DNA of 27,918 bases. It comes from a virus. A program made the position numbers and the translations under genes. This document shows, piece by piece, positions 3,232 to 12,528 of the stretch (its first letter is position 1; each line of letters opens with the position of its first letter). The notes beneath the pieces were generated by a model. The model was not told where the DNA came from, did no database searches, and saw only the letters and a list, made by a program, of their open reading frames with translations. The stretch covers positions 1 to 27,918 of IMG/VR virus record IMGVR_UViG_3300014838_000066. The stretch is one strand, 5' to 3'.

Positions 3232-3243
3232 CAAAAACCATTG

Positions 3244-3909
3244 ATGAAGATTCTTAATTTATATGCAAATATCGGAGGCAATCGGAAGTTGTGGGGCAAT
3301 CAACACGAAATCACGGCGATTGAACTTAACCCTAAGGTCGCAGAAATATATAAAGACTTTTGGCCTAACGATACGGTTATTGTCGCAGATGCACACCAAT
3401 ACTTATTAGACCATTACAAAGAGTTTGATTTTATTTGGTCATCGCCTCCATGTCCTACCCATTCGAAGGTTGGTAGATTGCGAGCGTTCAATGAACATAA
3501 CAAATCTACGGGTCAGTATTCACCGGCGAAATATCCCGATGTGGCTTTGTATCAAGAGATATTACTTTTGGAAGGCTATTTTAAGGGGAATTGGTGCGTA
3601 GAGAACGTAGTGGCTTGGTATAAACCTTTAATACCTCCTACGCAATTAGGCGGTCATTGGTTGTGGTCGAACTTTGGTATTTCAGATAGGAAATTTGATA
3701 TAAGGCAAATTAACACCAAAGGCAAAAACGATGCACAAATTAGATCAAAGAAATTGGGTTTTGATTTATCGAAATATACTGGCATTGATAAACGATTGGC
3801 ATTAAGGGATTGCACCGAACCAGAATTAGGCAAACATATTCTCGATTGCGCCATGAACTCCCCATCACTTTTCGCCGCCCCAAAAGAAAAACAAAAAGGT
3901 CTATTCTAA
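3244..3909 (+). CDS. C5-cytosine DNA methyltransferase-like protein
   Basis: Resembles the small DNA cytosine-5 methyltransferases encoded by phages. Motif I for S-adenosylmethionine is LNLYANIGG (residues 4-12), an acidic residue follows in AIELNP (25-30), motif IV carries the catalytic Cys in SSPPCPTHS (66-74, Cys70), and motif VI is the ENV triplet (120-122). The 221 residues are short compared with most C5 enzymes (300-400), so the target-recognition region must be minimal or supplied differently. The ATG at 3244 is preferred over the TTG at 3241. It follows the MT-A70 gene, giving two base-modifying enzymes in one operon. Confidence 0.8.
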   Translation: MKILNLYANIGGNRKLWGNQHEITAIELNPKVAEIYKDFWPNDTVIVADAHQYLLDHYKEFDFIWSSPPCPTHSKVGRLRAFNEHNKSTGQYSPAKYPDVALYQEILLLEGYFKGNWCVENVVAWYKPLIPPTQLGGHWLWSNFGISDRKFDIRQINTKGKNDAQIRSKKLGFDLSKYTGIDKRLALRDCTEPELGKHILDCAMNSPSLFAAPKEKQKGLF

Positions 3910-3946
3910 GCCATCGCAGGAAAAAGAATTGAAATCTATAAATAAC

Positions 3947-5275
3947 ATGAATGAAATAAACTTAGGCTCGATAAAATTACCAATAAACGCCGCGACTAAG
4001 AGCTTTGCAATCCTTGCAAAACGTGGAGCTGGGAAGACCTATCTCGGCGGAGTAATGGCAGAAGAGTTCTTTAAGAATAATATACCTTTTGTTGTATTTG
4101 ACCCTATTGATGTGTGGTGGGGGCTTCGATTTGATAAAAATGGTAAGGATAAGGGTTTGCCCGTGGTTGTTTTTGGGCTTGAACATGCTGATATTCTATT
4201 AGACAGGGATATGGGGCCGGAAATTGCGCGCGCTATCGTAAAAGAAAATGTATCATGTGTCATATCAACATTTGGAATGCCGAAGGTTGGGGCAAGGCAC
4301 TTAATCGCGGAATTCGCGGAAACGCTTTTGAACATCAACAACACTCCCCGCCATGTGTTCATCGAGGAGGCGCATGAGTACGTCCCCCAGAGGGTCGTAG
4401 GGGGCATGAGTACGGTATTCTCCCGCGTGGAATCTCTTGTTACTATGGGAAGGAATCGTGGTATCGGAGTAACAATGCTCAACCAGCGTGCGGCGACACT
4501 TAACAAGGATGTGCTTACCCAGATTGATACACTTCTTGCCCTCCGCTCATTAGGCCCACAGGACAGGAAGGCACTCGCTGAATGGGTGGAAGCGCATGGT
4601 ACGGAAGATAATAAAAAGTTCGATGACTTTATTAAAGCACTTCCCTCCATTCCGACAGGGGAAGGGTATATCTGGTCGCCAGAATTCCTTGGCGTGTTTG
4701 ACAAGTTCAAGATCAGGAAGCGCGAAACACTCCACCCTGACCGAGAAAAGATAGGCAAAGACTTTGAGATGCCGGAACTCACACAGACTGATGTGCAGTC
4801 ATTCATCTCAAAGTTTTCCAGTTCGCATTCTTCCACGGCACAAAAGGTAAAAGGACAGAGCAAGCAAATACCTCAAATAATTCAACCTATTGTCGAGAAC
4901 GAAACACTTATTCAAGTTCGTAATCAATACGAATCGCAACTAATTCAAAAAGATGGCGAGATCCACCGATTAAATGCCATCATAGAAAACATCAGGGGAT
5001 TGGTAGGCGGCACGCCACAACAAACGACCTATCTTCCTCTTTCGAACGATGTGGTGAGTATGTGGAAGAATAAATTAGGGCCATCATCTTTAGCGACACG
5101 CATCCTTAATTTTCTAGTAGAAAATAATCATCGTGCGTTTTCAAGGGAACAGATTGCACTTGCGCTTGGAGTTTCGGCGAAAGGAGGATATATCAACAAC
5201 GAATGGGGAAGATTGATGCGTACGAGTACGGTGGTAAAGGATGGCTCAATGTATAAATTAAATCCTAATCTTTAG
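3947..5275 (+). CDS. HerA-like (DUF87/FtsK-HerA class) ATPase
   Basis: A hexameric-type P-loop ATPase of the HerA class. Walker A is AKRGAGKT (residues 24-31), Walker B is HVFIEEAHE (136-144) with the acidic pair, and the GRNRGIGVTMLNQ block (168-180) followed by TQIDTLLALR matches the sensor and arginine-finger region of HerA proteins. A short coiled segment precedes a C-terminal winged-helix-like domain (about 370-440). Cellular HerA works with NurA in DNA end processing; no NurA is nearby, so the partner is unknown. ATG at 3947 (leader AAATAAC) is preferred over a TTG at 3929, which adds six residues. Confidence 0.8.
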   Translation: MNEINLGSIKLPINAATKSFAILAKRGAGKTYLGGVMAEEFFKNNIPFVVFDPIDVWWGLRFDKNGKDKGLPVVVFGLEHADILLDRDMGPEIARAIVKENVSCVISTFGMPKVGARHLIAEFAETLLNINNTPRHVFIEEAHEYVPQRVVGGMSTVFSRVESLVTMGRNRGIGVTMLNQRAATLNKDVLTQIDTLLALRSLGPQDRKALAEWVEAHGTEDNKKFDDFIKALPSIPTGEGYIWSPEFLGVFDKFKIRKRETLHPDREKIGKDFEMPELTQTDVQSFISKFSSSHSSTAQKVKGQSKQIPQIIQPIVENETLIQVRNQYESQLIQKDGEIHRLNAIIENIRGLVGGTPQQTTYLPLSNDVVSMWKNKLGPSSLATRILNFLVENNHRAFSREQIALALGVSAKGGYINNEWGRLMRTSTVVKDGSMYKLNPNL

Positions 5276-6182: not shown

Positions 6183-6563
6183 ATGAGCAAAATAACCAAA
6201 GAGGACGTATTAAATAACATCGAGGAAGTCAAAAAGTATATCCAAGAAGCCGAGCAGAAGACCAAAGAAAAAAATAAGGTAGTCATTGAGATTAAGAACC
6301 GCTTTACGGGAGAAGTGAAGTTTGCGAGCGAGAAATCAACCATTAAGGAAGCGATACAGGATAATAAGGCAAACCTTTCCGGGGCAGACCTTCGCAAGGC
6401 AAACCTTTACGAGGCAAACCTTTACGGGGCAAACCTTTCCGGGGCAGACCTTCGCAAGGCAGAGTTACAAAATGCCAAGTTCTACGGCAAGGGTGGCGCG
6501 ACAAAAATAAAAAAGAGCCAAGTCGATGACTTCTTCAAAGCACTTGGGATAATCGTTGAATAA
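6183..6563 (+). CDS. Pentapeptide-repeat protein
   Basis: An N-terminal helical region (residues 1-60, Lys/Glu-rich) precedes about eight A(N/D)LXX units: ANLSG, ADLRK, ANLYE, ANLYG, ANLSG, ADLRK, AELQN, AKFYG (about 64-103). Such units build a right-handed quadrilateral beta-helix; some family members mimic DNA and inhibit gyrase, but most have no known role. With only eight units the helix would have two turns, fewer than in gyrase-inhibiting members. The C-terminal tail is helical (SQVDDFFKALGIIV). Leader ATAACAAAAATCT, no Shine-Dalgarno motif. Confidence 0.8.
   Translation: MSKITKEDVLNNIEEVKKYIQEAEQKTKEKNKVVIEIKNRFTGEVKFASEKSTIKEAIQDNKANLSGADLRKANLYEANLYGANLSGADLRKAELQNAKFYGKGGATKIKKSQVDDFFKALGIIVE
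6368..6461 (+). repeat. 34-base direct repeat inside the pentapeptide gene
   Basis: Bases 6368-6401 and 6428-6461 are identical over 34 positions at a 60-base offset, each encoding ANLSGADLRK. The DNA identity, not only protein similarity, suggests recent duplication or gene conversion that changes the number of repeat units. Confidence 0.75.
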
Positions 6564-6567
6564 AACT

Positions 6568-6795
6568 ATGAACAATAAACCTTTCAGTTTCACCGACAAA
6601 GATGCAGTTACCAAGTTCTTTGGCGACTTGAACGAGTTGGTGTACGGGATTAACCCCTACGAGAAAAAAGCGGCGTTCGAGCCAGCGATAAGCGACGAGG
6701 AAGACGAGAAAGAGAAAGAACCGTTGCCGGAAGACGACGAGATAGATGCGATGTATGCGGCGAGTGAAAGTCAAAATTATCGGGACTCACACTAA
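6568..6795 (+). CDS. Acidic hypothetical protein (75 aa)
   Basis: Not recognised. MNNKPFSFTD opens a short folded-looking segment (VTKFFGDLNELVYGI), followed by a very acidic stretch (DEEDEKEKEPLPEDDE). ATG at 6568 has the leader GAATAAAACT; an in-frame TTG at 6556 is less likely. The final A of its stop is the first base of the next gene. Confidence 0.55.
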   Translation: MNNKPFSFTDKDAVTKFFGDLNELVYGINPYEKKAAFEPAISDEEDEKEKEPLPEDDEIDAMYAASESQNYRDSH

Positions 6796-7181
6796 TGAAT
6801 AACTACAAATTCTTAGACGCAAAAGGCGAGCATATGCACACCCTCGATAACCGTCCACTTTATGGCACATCGAGCATTGTGGGCATCATCAGCAAACCGC
6901 TTACGTGGTGGGCGGCAGAATTGGCGGCGGTGGAGTGCCTAGAGGCGGGCGAGAAAATCCCCACGATCCGCGAGGAATACCTTGCGGCGGTGGCGAGCGA
7001 TGACAAGAAAAAGGCGATAGACGCACTTCAAAAGAAATATCCTATCTTCAAGGCGGCAAGGTTCGCCCACTTCACGAGCAAGAACAAGAAAGCGGAGGCA
7101 GGGACGGACCTTCATCTCGAATTATCCAATTATATTATTGCTTGCATAAGGGATAATAATGGTGTACCATTAGAGGTATGA
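6795..7181 (+). CDS. PD-(D/E)XK (RecB/Cas4-like) nuclease, N-terminal half
   Basis: The N-terminal half of a phage PD-(D/E)XK nuclease. It has the typical beginning (SSIVGIISKPLTWWAAELA, near residues 26-44) and the helix AGTDLHLELSNYI (about 101-113), equivalent to the AGTxxHxxxExY helix that precedes the catalytic core in RecB-like phage nucleases. The frame stops at NNGVPLEV just where the core should continue. The core (DFKSS motif) is found in 7708-8127, after an HNH gene. The last 60 bases are clearly richer in A+T than the rest of the gene. The two halves probably associate or the protein is inactive (inference). Confidence 0.7.
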   Translation: MNNYKFLDAKGEHMHTLDNRPLYGTSSIVGIISKPLTWWAAELAAVECLEAGEKIPTIREEYLAAVASDDKKKAIDALQKKYPIFKAARFAHFTSKNKKAEAGTDLHLELSNYIIACIRDNNGVPLEV

Positions 7182-7711
7182 GAAAAGATAGTTTAGGACG
7201 AAAAATACCCAAAAGAACTAAAGAATGGCGAAGCAATATTTCCAAAGCATTGGATAAAAAGTTTGTGGCACAATGTTTGTTATGTTCAAAAAAGTTTATG
7301 TGCCACAGATACAGAAATGGAGAAGTAAAGTATTGTTCAAGAAAATGTACGGGTATAGCGATTAGGGGACGAGAAAAGAAAGCGACGCAAAAAAAGAGGG
7401 TAAGGTATTCGGGAATACATATGTGGATAAGACGTTACCTTCCGGCAGAGAAATGTTCCGAATGTGGAGCAACGGGGAAATTGCATAGGGCTAACATAAG
7501 CAAGAAGTATCTGCGGAATATAAGTGACTGGAAGGTTCTCTGTGTCCGTTGCCATTCTGAGTTTGACGGAAATGCCAAAATACTCAGAGCAGATATTGAA
7601 AGAATAATTGGTCTACGGAAGGCTGGCATGACATTCAATCAAATCGCAGATGATTATGGAGTTACGAGAAAAGCGATAAGCAAAAGATATTATCAAGCAA
7701 TAAAAAAATGA
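7178..7711 (+). CDS. HNH homing endonuclease inserted in the nuclease gene
   Basis: A free-standing HNH endonuclease of 177 residues. An N-terminal zinc-finger-like part has Cys at 33, 36, 53 and 57. The HNH core has CSEC (93-96), the LHRANI segment (102-107) and CVRCH (122-126). A C-terminal helix-turn-helix (about 141-172, GMTFNQIADDYGVTRKAISKRYY) should bind the target. The gene overlaps the upstream half-gene by ATGA (preceded by GAGGT) and the downstream half-gene by ATGA. Each of the three is in a different reading frame, which excludes an intein, and there is no room for a group I intron core. Base composition is more A+T-rich than the flanking nuclease. Confidence 0.85.
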   Translation: MRKDSLGRKIPKRTKEWRSNISKALDKKFVAQCLLCSKKFMCHRYRNGEVKYCSRKCTGIAIRGREKKATQKKRVRYSGIHMWIRRYLPAEKCSECGATGKLHRANISKKYLRNISDWKVLCVRCHSEFDGNAKILRADIERIIGLRKAGMTFNQIADDYGVTRKAISKRYYQAIKK

Positions 7712-8127
7712 AATACGAAACAGATATTCCGCAAGTAAAATTATTCGCAAACTGGGCGACCGAAAACATAGAAAAGTTCCTCATCTCCGAAGGGCATTGC
7801 TACTCCGAGGCATTATGGGTTGGTGGCATTACCGATTGTATGGCAGAGATGAAGAACGGCGAAGTGTGGATAATTGACTTCAAATCATCGCCCGTTGCTT
7901 ACGACTCGCAATTCGTGCAGGTGGCTGGATACGACCTAGAGCAAGCGGAGAATGGCATCTTTGACGCGGACGGGAAAAATATGCTCGCGCCGCAAGAGAT
8001 AAAAAAATACGCTATCGTTCCCTTCGGTGCAAAAGAATTCAAGGTCGAAATAAAAGAAGCGACGAATGAGTTTAGGGAAGGGTTCAAAAGTGCGGCGTGC
8101 TTATATAAACTATTAAACAAAAACTAA
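7708..8127 (+). CDS. PD-(D/E)XK nuclease, C-terminal catalytic half
   Basis: Carries the catalytic core missing from 6795-7181: Glu34 (CYSEALWVGG), Asp43 (GGITD), the DxK motif in WIIDFKSS (Asp57, Lys59) and QVAGY (71-75), in the order expected for RecB/Cas4-like phage exonucleases. The start MKYETDIPQVKLF joins smoothly to the end of the N-terminal half, as if the HNH gene had been dropped between two codons. Translation would be coupled to the HNH gene through the ATGA overlap. Together with the next gene it probably forms a recombination or end-resection pair. Confidence 0.75.
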   Translation: MKYETDIPQVKLFANWATENIEKFLISEGHCYSEALWVGGITDCMAEMKNGEVWIIDFKSSPVAYDSQFVQVAGYDLEQAENGIFDADGKNMLAPQEIKKYAIVPFGAKEFKVEIKEATNEFREGFKSAACLYKLLNKN

Positions 8128-8128
8128 A

Positions 8129-8431
8129 ATGGGATATAACGAAGTAGAATCGGGCGCGCGTTGGATGCCGGAAACGGTCGGTGATAAGTTGGAAGGAGTC
8201 TTGGAAAGCCGTGAAACCAAGCCAGGGAAAAACGGTGAGGACTATACGTTGTTCTTCATCATCGAAGAAGGCACAGGCGAGAAACGCTCCGTATCAGGCG
8301 CAGTGCTTGAGAGCAAGTTGAGCGGCGTACCCGATGGCGCAAAGCTTCTCTTGACCTACAAAGGCAAGCCAAAGGGAACGTACAAGGACTATTCGGTTGG
8401 AGTATGGGAAGACGAAAAACCTAATCTCTAA
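8129..8431 (+). CDS. Probable OB-fold single-stranded-DNA-binding protein
   Basis: A 100-residue, beta-rich protein (DKLEGVLESRET, DYTLFFIIEEG, KRSVSGAVLESKL, AKLLLTYKGK, YKDYSVGVW). The pattern of five alternating strands, a short loop and a conserved end suggests the OB fold. Similar small proteins follow RecB-like nucleases in other phages. Binding to single-stranded DNA is inferred from fold and position, not from a specific motif. Leader AAAACTAAA. Confidence 0.5.
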   Translation: MGYNEVESGARWMPETVGDKLEGVLESRETKPGKNGEDYTLFFIIEEGTGEKRSVSGAVLESKLSGVPDGAKLLLTYKGKPKGTYKDYSVGVWEDEKPNL

Positions 8432-10732: not shown

Positions 10733-10946
10733 ACGTTATGGAAAATCACGATGCTCAAAAGGAAACTATTTACACAAGTTTCGAGAGGTCGAGCGGAACG
10801 AGTATGGAGTCCTTGAACGGTGCGAGCGGTGCGGGCTAAGAAAGCATTTTCCACAAGATATTTCAAGCAGTAAATACCTAGAGTTTCACATCCGAGAAGT
10901 CCTACAAACAAACGACCAAATTTATTACCATGAGTACACGCGATAA
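10722..10946 (+). CDS. Small zinc-finger-like protein between groES and groEL
   Basis: A 74-residue protein with a CERCGLRKHFP knuckle in the middle and an upstream Cys11/His18 that could complete a zinc site. It overlaps the GroES-like gene by 11 bases and groEL by 17 bases, an unusual insertion into a pair that is normally adjacent. Its function is unknown. Overlap on both sides lowers certainty, but the gene would otherwise leave a 200-base gap. Confidence 0.5.
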   Translation: MLDRRYGKSRCSKGNYLHKFREVERNEYGVLERCERCGLRKHFPQDISSSKYLEFHIREVLQTNDQIYYHEYTR

Positions 10947-12528
10947 TCTCTATACGAGCGAACAGGCAAGAGAGAAGTTAATGAGCGGCATTAAACGTGC
11001 CAGTGAAGCTATTGCTATAACTATGGGTACTTCTGGTAGCAATAGTATCATTGAGGATATGCGTAATCCACAGTATTTTGTAAGTAATGACGGCGCATCA
11101 ATTTTGGAACGCATAAGGTTCGCTGACCCTATTGAGGAGTTAGGAAGAAAGATACTTTTTGAGGCTGTGGGCAGAAGTAATCGCGCGAATGGCGACGGAA
11201 GTTCTACGGCAACACTTTTGACTGCTTCTATCCTAGAGGAAGGTATGAAGCATATCGGAGAAGTCGCTCCGATGGAAATAAAAAAGAGCCTTGAAGACTG
11301 TATCCCCCTTATCGAAGAATCTCTTAAATCCCAGCGCAAAGAATTGGTGGATAAGGACGGCAATATCGACTTCAAATTACTTGAACAGACTGCTACTATC
11401 AGCGCAGAATCGGAGGAAATCGGAAAGACGATAGCTGAGATTTACAAGCATATTGGTAAAGACGGCATTATTAACTGGGAGGCGTCAAAAGATACCAAAG
11501 ACAGTTATTCCATCGGCACGGGCATCAAAATCGACGGAGCGACCTACGCTTCACGCTATATGTGCGACCAACTTCCGAACGGAGAGTATACCTATCAGGC
11601 AACCATAGAAAATCCTTTGGTTCTCCTAGCCTTCAGCAAGATAACCTCACAAGGAGAAATGGAAAAACTGGTCGGGGAATTACAGGTCCATGACGTAAAG
11701 GACTTGGTTATCTTCTGCAATGAGATGGACGCGCCGATTCTGAACAGTTTTATCCTCGCCCGCGCCCCGCAGACGCTCGGAATTAGATTTTTGGTCATCA
11801 AGATGCCTACGGTATTCAACGATTTATGGTGGGAGGACTTGGAGAAAGCATCAGGTGGAAGAATCATTAGCCCCTCATCGGGTATCAAGATGCGCGATAC
11901 CAAGATGGAGTTTTTGGGTCATTTTGGAAAGATAACCGTGAATCGTGAGGGAACGTTCATTGATGGCATACAAGATTTGACGACCCATTTGCTTGGACTC
12001 AAAGTGGACGGATCGGACGAAGCATTGGCTCGCGCGGCGAGATTAAACACAAAAACGGCTATTTATTTCGTGGGAGGACACAGCGAAAGCTCATTGGCGT
12101 ATAGAAGGCTTAAAATTGAGGACAGCATTAATTCTGCATATAGCGCATTGCACAATGGAATTGTTGCGGGAGGCGGATTAGCTCTAAAAAACGCCCGAAC
12201 GTGGGATGGCGAAACTGTAGGACAAGAGATATTAGATTATGCATTATTAACACCAATTATGCAGATTATGAGAAATGCTGGTATTGAGCATGACGTACTT
12301 TCGCAAGGGAGCGAAGAGGGATGGGACACGAGAACTAAAAAATTAGTTAATATGTTTGATGCTGGTATCGTCGATAGCTACGATGTTGTTCTCGGCGCAG
12401 TGAAGTCAGCAATCGGTGTTGCCGCAGGAGTTTTGACCGCCGGAAGTGTCGTCTTGTTGCCCCGGCAAGAGAATGACATAACCGACCAGATAGCCCAAAA
12501 AGTAGCAGGAATGATGCAACCACAATGA
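10930..12528 (+). CDS. groEL: Divergent phage chaperonin GroEL (Cpn60, group I-like)
   Basis: A 532-residue chaperonin subunit. Equatorial ATP-binding motifs are present: NDGASI (53-58, Asp54), GDGSSTAT (88-95, GroEL form GDGTTTAT), KIED (395-398, with the hydrolysis Asp at 398) and GIVAGGGLAL (410-419). The TLGPKGRN loop is changed to TMGTSGSN (31-38). The apical domain (about 190-350) is strongly divergent, and the segment before the second intermediate part is shorter than in E. coli GroEL. The C-terminus ends in AGMMQPQ rather than a GGM repeat. It likely folds a phage protein such as the capsid protein (inference). Its stop overlaps the next gene by 4 bases. Confidence 0.9.
   Translation: MSTRDNLYTSEQAREKLMSGIKRASEAIAITMGTSGSNSIIEDMRNPQYFVSNDGASILERIRFADPIEELGRKILFEAVGRSNRANGDGSSTATLLTASILEEGMKHIGEVAPMEIKKSLEDCIPLIEESLKSQRKELVDKDGNIDFKLLEQTATISAESEEIGKTIAEIYKHIGKDGIINWEASKDTKDSYSIGTGIKIDGATYASRYMCDQLPNGEYTYQATIENPLVLLAFSKITSQGEMEKLVGELQVHDVKDLVIFCNEMDAPILNSFILARAPQTLGIRFLVIKMPTVFNDLWWEDLEKASGGRIISPSSGIKMRDTKMEFLGHFGKITVNREGTFIDGIQDLTTHLLGLKVDGSDEALARAARLNTKTAIYFVGGHSESSLAYRRLKIEDSINSAYSALHNGIVAGGGLALKNARTWDGETVGQEILDYALLTPIMQIMRNAGIEHDVLSQGSEEGWDTRTKKLVNMFDAGIVDSYDVVLGAVKSAIGVAAGVLTAGSVVLLPRQENDITDQIAQKVAGMMQPQ

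Follow-up and report, generated by a model that had tools for sequence, protein, structure and literature searches.

An open reading frame for an HNH-type endonuclease stands between two partial nuclease frames in the genome of a virus of bacteria, and the locus raises the question of whether these parts are one gene that the endonuclease gene has split, how such a split arose, and whether the two products could still act together. The window referred to below is the whole stretch analysed, the 27,918 bases of virus record IMGVR_UViG_3300014838_000066 (positions 1-27,918), and the numbers L002 to L031 designate viral contigs carrying homologues. The reading that we favour, with a probability of about 80%, is that a homing endonuclease has split a phage gene for a RecB/MGME1-type exonuclease, whose predicted halves most likely assemble non-covalently into a working enzyme.

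Layout of the locus

The features of the locus, with the evidence that defines them, are the following.

6795-7181, + strand: N-terminal half-gene (N half) of a PD-(D/E)XK nuclease, 128 amino acids; 72% identity to residues 1-125 of L002; profile positions 1-123
7101-7115, + strand: GTDLH, motif Ia with the conserved histidine H107; histidine in every homologue of alignment A5
7116-7178, + strand: putative left co-converted flank, L007-like and A+T-rich; from amino-acid identity, permutation test and low third-position GC
7178-7711, + strand: HNH-type endonuclease frame, 177 amino acids, with an N-terminal Cys-rich domain and a C-terminal helix-turn-helix
7688-7707, + strand: A-rich start region of the C half, within the 3' end of the HNH frame; from the A fraction
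7708-8127, + strand: C-terminal half-gene (C half), 139 amino acids; 62% identity to residues 136-265 of L002; PHROG 298
7714-7740, + strand: putative right co-converted flank, L007-like; from codon sharing and the end of the permutation segment (amino-acid level), and may reach further at the nucleotide level
8129-8431, + strand: small uninterrupted gene of the same operon, directly 3' of the nuclease; no family match

The three frames are joined at both junctions by 4-base ATGA overlaps that combine a stop codon with the next start codon, and the HNH frame fills the 530-base insert from junction to junction. The coordinates of the frames and both junctions agree with the original prediction, which had been made from this sequence alone. 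Overlaps of the same kind also occur between ordinary genes of the window, for example at 1883, 2179 and 12525, and because they are common elsewhere we consider them the normal operon style of this phage and not a feature special to the split. Misassembly or chance is ruled out by a separate contig, L007, which has the identical three-gene layout with the same two ATGA junctions.

The exclusion of an intein and the absence of an intron core, both part of that prediction, hold as well. An intein is ruled out by the differing frames of the neighbours and by the stop and new start codons at both junctions. A group I or II intron containing the HNH frame is contradicted by the lack of room outside the frame and by the comparison with Rfam, in which no intron family matched positions 6900-8000, either at the gathering threshold or at a relaxed E of 5. 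These observations also bear on the idea that the pieces are rejoined in RNA or during translation, by an unrecognised intron around the HNH frame or by ribosomes that bypass the insert. Introns often host HNH genes, and T4 gene 60 is a case of bypassing over a 50-base gap; however, the frame spans the insert from one junction to the other, no Rfam intron was matched at either threshold, the insert of ~530 bases is longer than the T4 bypass by a factor of about ten, and in three phages each half is delimited by stop and start codons of its own, which makes rejoining extremely improbable. What we propose instead is that the variable linker of the exonuclease was invaded by a gene for an HNH homing-type endonuclease that came with neither intron nor intein, and that one operon would now give rise to three proteins: the N half, the endonuclease and the C half.

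One gene in relatives and the placement of the predicted active site

A search with the N half yielded five viral contigs (L002-L006) in which a single open frame runs through, and these uninterrupted homologues rule out subunits that were always separate. Two profile scans of viral contigs yielded ~30 contigs with an unbroken frame, a number that includes near-duplicates and one frame ended by the contig edge, against three that are split (the window, L007 and L031); the scans favour neither broken nor whole genes, because the scan patterns sit in the N-terminal part. When compared with a profile of whole genes only, the halves of the window cover positions 1-123 and 114-261, with a small overlap within the gap-rich linker, those of L007 cover 1-123 and 121-261, and those of L031 cover 4-116 and 116-260. 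The halves tile the profile, and the gene has therefore been split without evident loss or duplication. The claim that they join without loss is thereby upheld: the parts correspond to one uninterrupted gene in relatives, with no real overlap between their alignments.

The empty site was also found in relatives, including L002, a related phage whose nuclease gene is whole. The terminase of the window is 73% identical to that of L002 and 72% identical to that of the split L007, so that phages equally close to the window carry either an intact or a split allele. The linker that holds the split point differs strongly in length among members of the family (alignment A5). In the confident predicted model of L002 (pLDDT 87, pTM 0.80) the split point corresponds to a loop between two helices, at residues 120-134, where a break in the chain should be tolerated. 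Among annotated phages, no relatives of the N half or of the HNH frame were found, and the C half gave only weak partial matches to exonucleases of Synechococcus phages; in bacterial genomes, scanned with a profile from a four-row alignment, none of 111 pattern matches was confirmed as a relative.

The solved structure nearest to the L002 model is human MGME1 (Z 16, rmsd 3.6 A over 184 residues), followed by Cas4 (Z 12) and Dna2 (Z 11), and then by AddAB and RecE; the structures compared included PDB 5zyt, 7mi4 and 5eax (MGME1 and RecB/Cas4-like exonucleases). The C half matches the PHROG 298 exonuclease (E 2.3e-9), and intact homologues match across both parts of this family (L002, E 1.9e-15; L006, 8e-24), whose matched intact members are, unlike the protein of the window, single proteins. 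The modelled fold and these matches place the protein among the RecB/MGME1-type PD-(D/E)XK nucleases, with a predicted exonuclease activity. The uninterrupted homologue has the same fold as MGME1 and the same order of motifs (Ia His, E, D, DxK, QxxxY), and sequence identity to MGME1 and the RecB/Cas4-like exonucleases is only about 10-15%. All of these are single chains, whereas in the window the motif Ia histidine lies on a separate polypeptide.

The motifs were defined as in PMC6237815 (Ia, His; I, Glu; II, Asp; III, DxK; IV, QhXXY) and read from alignment A5. The motif Ia histidine, kept in every homologue of that alignment, is H107 of the N half (7113-7115), while the C half carries E28, D43, D57, K59, Q71 and Y75 (E, D, DxK and QxxxY), and the spacing of the motifs is similar to that in MGME1. 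In the human enzyme, a metal is bound by His180 (motif Ia), Asp238 and Asp251, and Glu223, Lys253 and Gln271 take part in the active site (PMC6237815). The view that the N half ends before the catalytic core is therefore correct for the E, D, DxK and QxxxY motifs, which lie in the C half, but not for the motif Ia histidine, which lies in the N half. The predicted active site would be divided between two polypeptides, and neither half alone would have the full metal site. Because the metal-binding histidine is on the N half and the remaining motifs are on the C half, we infer that the two most likely assemble with each other.

Recurrence of the insert and origin of the flanks

The HNH protein of L007 is 60% identical to that of the window, and in L031 a longer HNH gene interrupts the same linker. 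Trees were built for each half with the flanks removed, by a quick method that gave modest support values; in these trees the window groups with the intact L002, L007 with the intact L017/L018, and L031 with the intact L010. A clade of the window and L007 is rejected on the N half (p-AU 1.1e-7) and is borderline on the C half (0.056). Since each split allele has a different intact sister, the trees indicate that HNH genes have invaded the linker repeatedly or horizontally. That the gene was split once, long ago, and that most lineages then lost the insert is very unlikely by comparison: parsimony counts do not separate gain from loss and the N-terminal domain is common to all three inserts, but this history would require precise rejoining many times, the flanks move together with the insert, and an intact sister stands beside every split allele.

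The HNH frame of the window matches the PHROG 1271 HNH endonuclease (E 1.7e-7), has no match to the Pfam HNH families, and reaches an E of 1e-4 with HTH_7, just below the cut-off. Given the lack of a Pfam HNH match and an AlphaFold model that is too poor for use (pLDDT 49), its assignment to the HNH class rests on PHROG 1271, on its relatives and on its motifs; the L031 insert passes Pfam HNH and HNH_5. The first 58 residues of the L031 insert share 47-53% identity with the start of the inserts in the window and L007, but the L031 nuclease domain shares 48% identity with a free HNH gene that precedes the split gene in L007, which suggests an exchange of domains between neighbouring endonuclease genes. 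The inserts look modular, and their first domain may set the site. Further copies of the HNH gene or of its N-terminal domain were found only in L007 and L031, apart from distant HNH genes. The free HNH gene of L007 (2944-3390) is located about 195 bases upstream of the split nuclease, and in L003 a gene with a homing-endonuclease-associated repeat (3897-4724) is located upstream of the intact nuclease.

The flanks of the insert differ in their affinities from the rest of the halves. Outside the neighbourhood of the insert, the N half of the window is 78% identical to L002 and 36% identical to L007, and in its last 23 codons (7110-7178) these values reverse to 41% and 83%, respectively, the most extreme reversal among 276 pairs. 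On the right side, 11 of the first 15 codons of the C half (73%) are common with L007 and 6 of 15 (40%) with L002, and the L007-like tract extends over ~9-15 codons. A three-sequence permutation test delimits an L007-like segment from 7116 to 7740 around the insert (p<=5e-5, which is the floor of 20,000 shuffles), and two control sequences gave 0.11-0.37. The third-position GC, 0.53-0.87 before the last 23 codons of the N half, is 0.27 and then 0.11 within them. The A+T-rich 3' end of the first half, from which a trace of co-conversion had originally been suspected, is thus real, and the suspicion is borne out by the mosaic test, on both sides of the insert. Such a two-sided mosaic matches what co-conversion predicts: the endonuclease would spread by cutting alleles without the insert, and repair would then copy the gene together with short flanks.

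At the DNA level, the flank is 87% alike between the window and L007, against roughly 62% for the HNH genes, and given this higher likeness of the flank, a constraint on the DNA may add to co-conversion. The same excess of likeness could be taken to mean that a constraint on DNA or RNA, such as a hairpin with a regulatory role or a sequence bound by the HNH protein, acts in place of co-conversion. By eye, both flanks are able to form a hairpin-like inverted repeat; however, the folding of the flanks before the HNH start is not significantly better than that of shuffled sequence (z -1.2 and +0.6), and the change from L002-like to L007-like is seen in the amino-acid sequence itself. We consider this explanation unlikely, and co-conversion is preferred. 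Exact matches to a 17-base sequence of the flank were found in 23 viral stretches; of these, only the contig of L007 belongs to the nuclease gene studied here. A short A+T-rich inverted repeat precedes the HNH start at 7134-7162 in the window and at about 3957-3985 in L007.

State of the halves, expression and known systems

In all three phages (the window, L007 and L031), both halves are open and full length, and all active-site residues are kept. Differences in the half-genes are mostly silent (pN 0.20-0.36, pS 0.71-0.94), in values that include divergence from before the split. The end branches of the N half, compared between split forms and intact sisters, are 0.19 vs 0.09 and 0.36 vs 0.09, which could mean somewhat relaxed selection, and those of the C half are 0.37 vs 0.36 and 0.22 vs 0.37. 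The longer N-half branches would also be expected if the insertion had destroyed the exonuclease and left the halves as remnants, with the endonuclease alone being of importance, and an exonuclease of this kind is dispensable to many phages. Against this stand the open, full-length halves with every active-site residue kept in three phages, the changes mainly at silent sites, and the C-half branch lengths, which match those of intact sisters, so that we find such a loss of function quite unlikely. The evidence favours functional halves, although it does not prove them, because part of the divergence predates the split.

Most starts in the window have no Shine-Dalgarno site and are preceded by an A-rich stretch, a pattern also seen in Bacteroidota and the phages that infect them. 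With an A fraction of 0.67 in the 15 bases upstream, the start of the C half is typical of the window genome, and it fits this pattern because the HNH frame ends in an A-rich stretch. The HNH start, with an A fraction of 0.27, is off the pattern and may rely on termination at the stop of the N half. The insert thus appears to supply the stop that ends the N half and an ordinary start region from which the C half is translated, while the endonuclease itself would be weakly expressed. The description of the half-genes as coupled is accurate as regards the ATGA overlaps, but the C half has an ordinary A-rich start of its own and need not depend on translational coupling.

The likeness to the split nrdA gene of Aeromonas phage Aeh1, suggested in the original prediction, is supported by the one-gene relatives, the intron-free insert, the empty site and the co-conversion. 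In Aeh1, nrdA is split by mobE and a working enzyme is formed from two polypeptides, and working split enzymes have been reviewed as precedents (PMC2988022). In both systems an intron-free HNH-type endonuclease gene lies inside an enzyme gene whose product is two polypeptides, and a start-stop overlap like the ATGA junctions of the window has been reported for the related T4 nrdA/mobE junction (PMC2988022). The host gene is a ribonucleotide reductase there and an exonuclease in the window; unlike Aeh1 nrdA, the exonuclease linker has been hit in at least three phages; and assembly and activity have been shown for Aeh1 nrdA, whereas the system of the window is known from its sequence. The T4 topoisomerase large subunit/mobA and Aeromonas phage 25 gene 43/seg43 cases likewise have a homing endonuclease gene between parts of a replication-enzyme gene, but with other host genes and other endonuclease families, and the insertion order is uncertain in phage 25 (PMC2988022). 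In the literature searched, no RecB-type exonuclease interrupted by an HNH gene was described, and the closest case, Lelliottia phage phD2B, concerns a terminase gene.

The locus adds the exonuclease, as a new host gene, to the genes of the Aeh1 nrdA kind that homing endonucleases have split, and it stands out by its recurrence at a single linker, the apparently swapped nuclease domain and the divided metal site. Descriptions of enzyme genes fragmented by homing endonucleases are few, and those reviewed come from T4-like phages; the present one is a separate case from environmental phages with small genomes, in which three lineages each have an intact sister for comparison. It represents a natural experiment in which a one-chain enzyme becomes a two-chain enzyme, and it offers a ready-made split point for a RecB/MGME1-type nuclease. 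As a tentative broader picture, the linker could be a standing target for a modular family of HNH elements, which would convert a recombination exonuclease made as one chain into an enzyme that works only as two parts, with its metal site divided between them. The signals for stop and start, by which both parts stay expressed, would come with these elements, and the elements would retain their N-terminal domain but exchange the cutting domain with free HNH genes nearby; the exonuclease may itself join in the repair that copies them.

Small proteins with an acidic tail ending in PDDIPF or PEEIPF are encoded beside or near the nuclease in L003 (6034-6459) and L007 (4974-5432); they resemble single-strand DNA-binding protein and have no Pfam match. 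Just upstream of the split gene, the window encodes a pentapeptide-repeat protein with near-identical DNA repeats (6183-6563), and another repeat protein is encoded in L007 (5771-6643). Elsewhere, the window encodes a peptide deformylase (86-550) and a GroEL-type chaperonin (10930-12528), both phage-encoded, as well as a C5-cytosine methylase (3241-3909) that matches its profile only at positions 1-87 of 324 and whose gene may be truncated or frameshifted.
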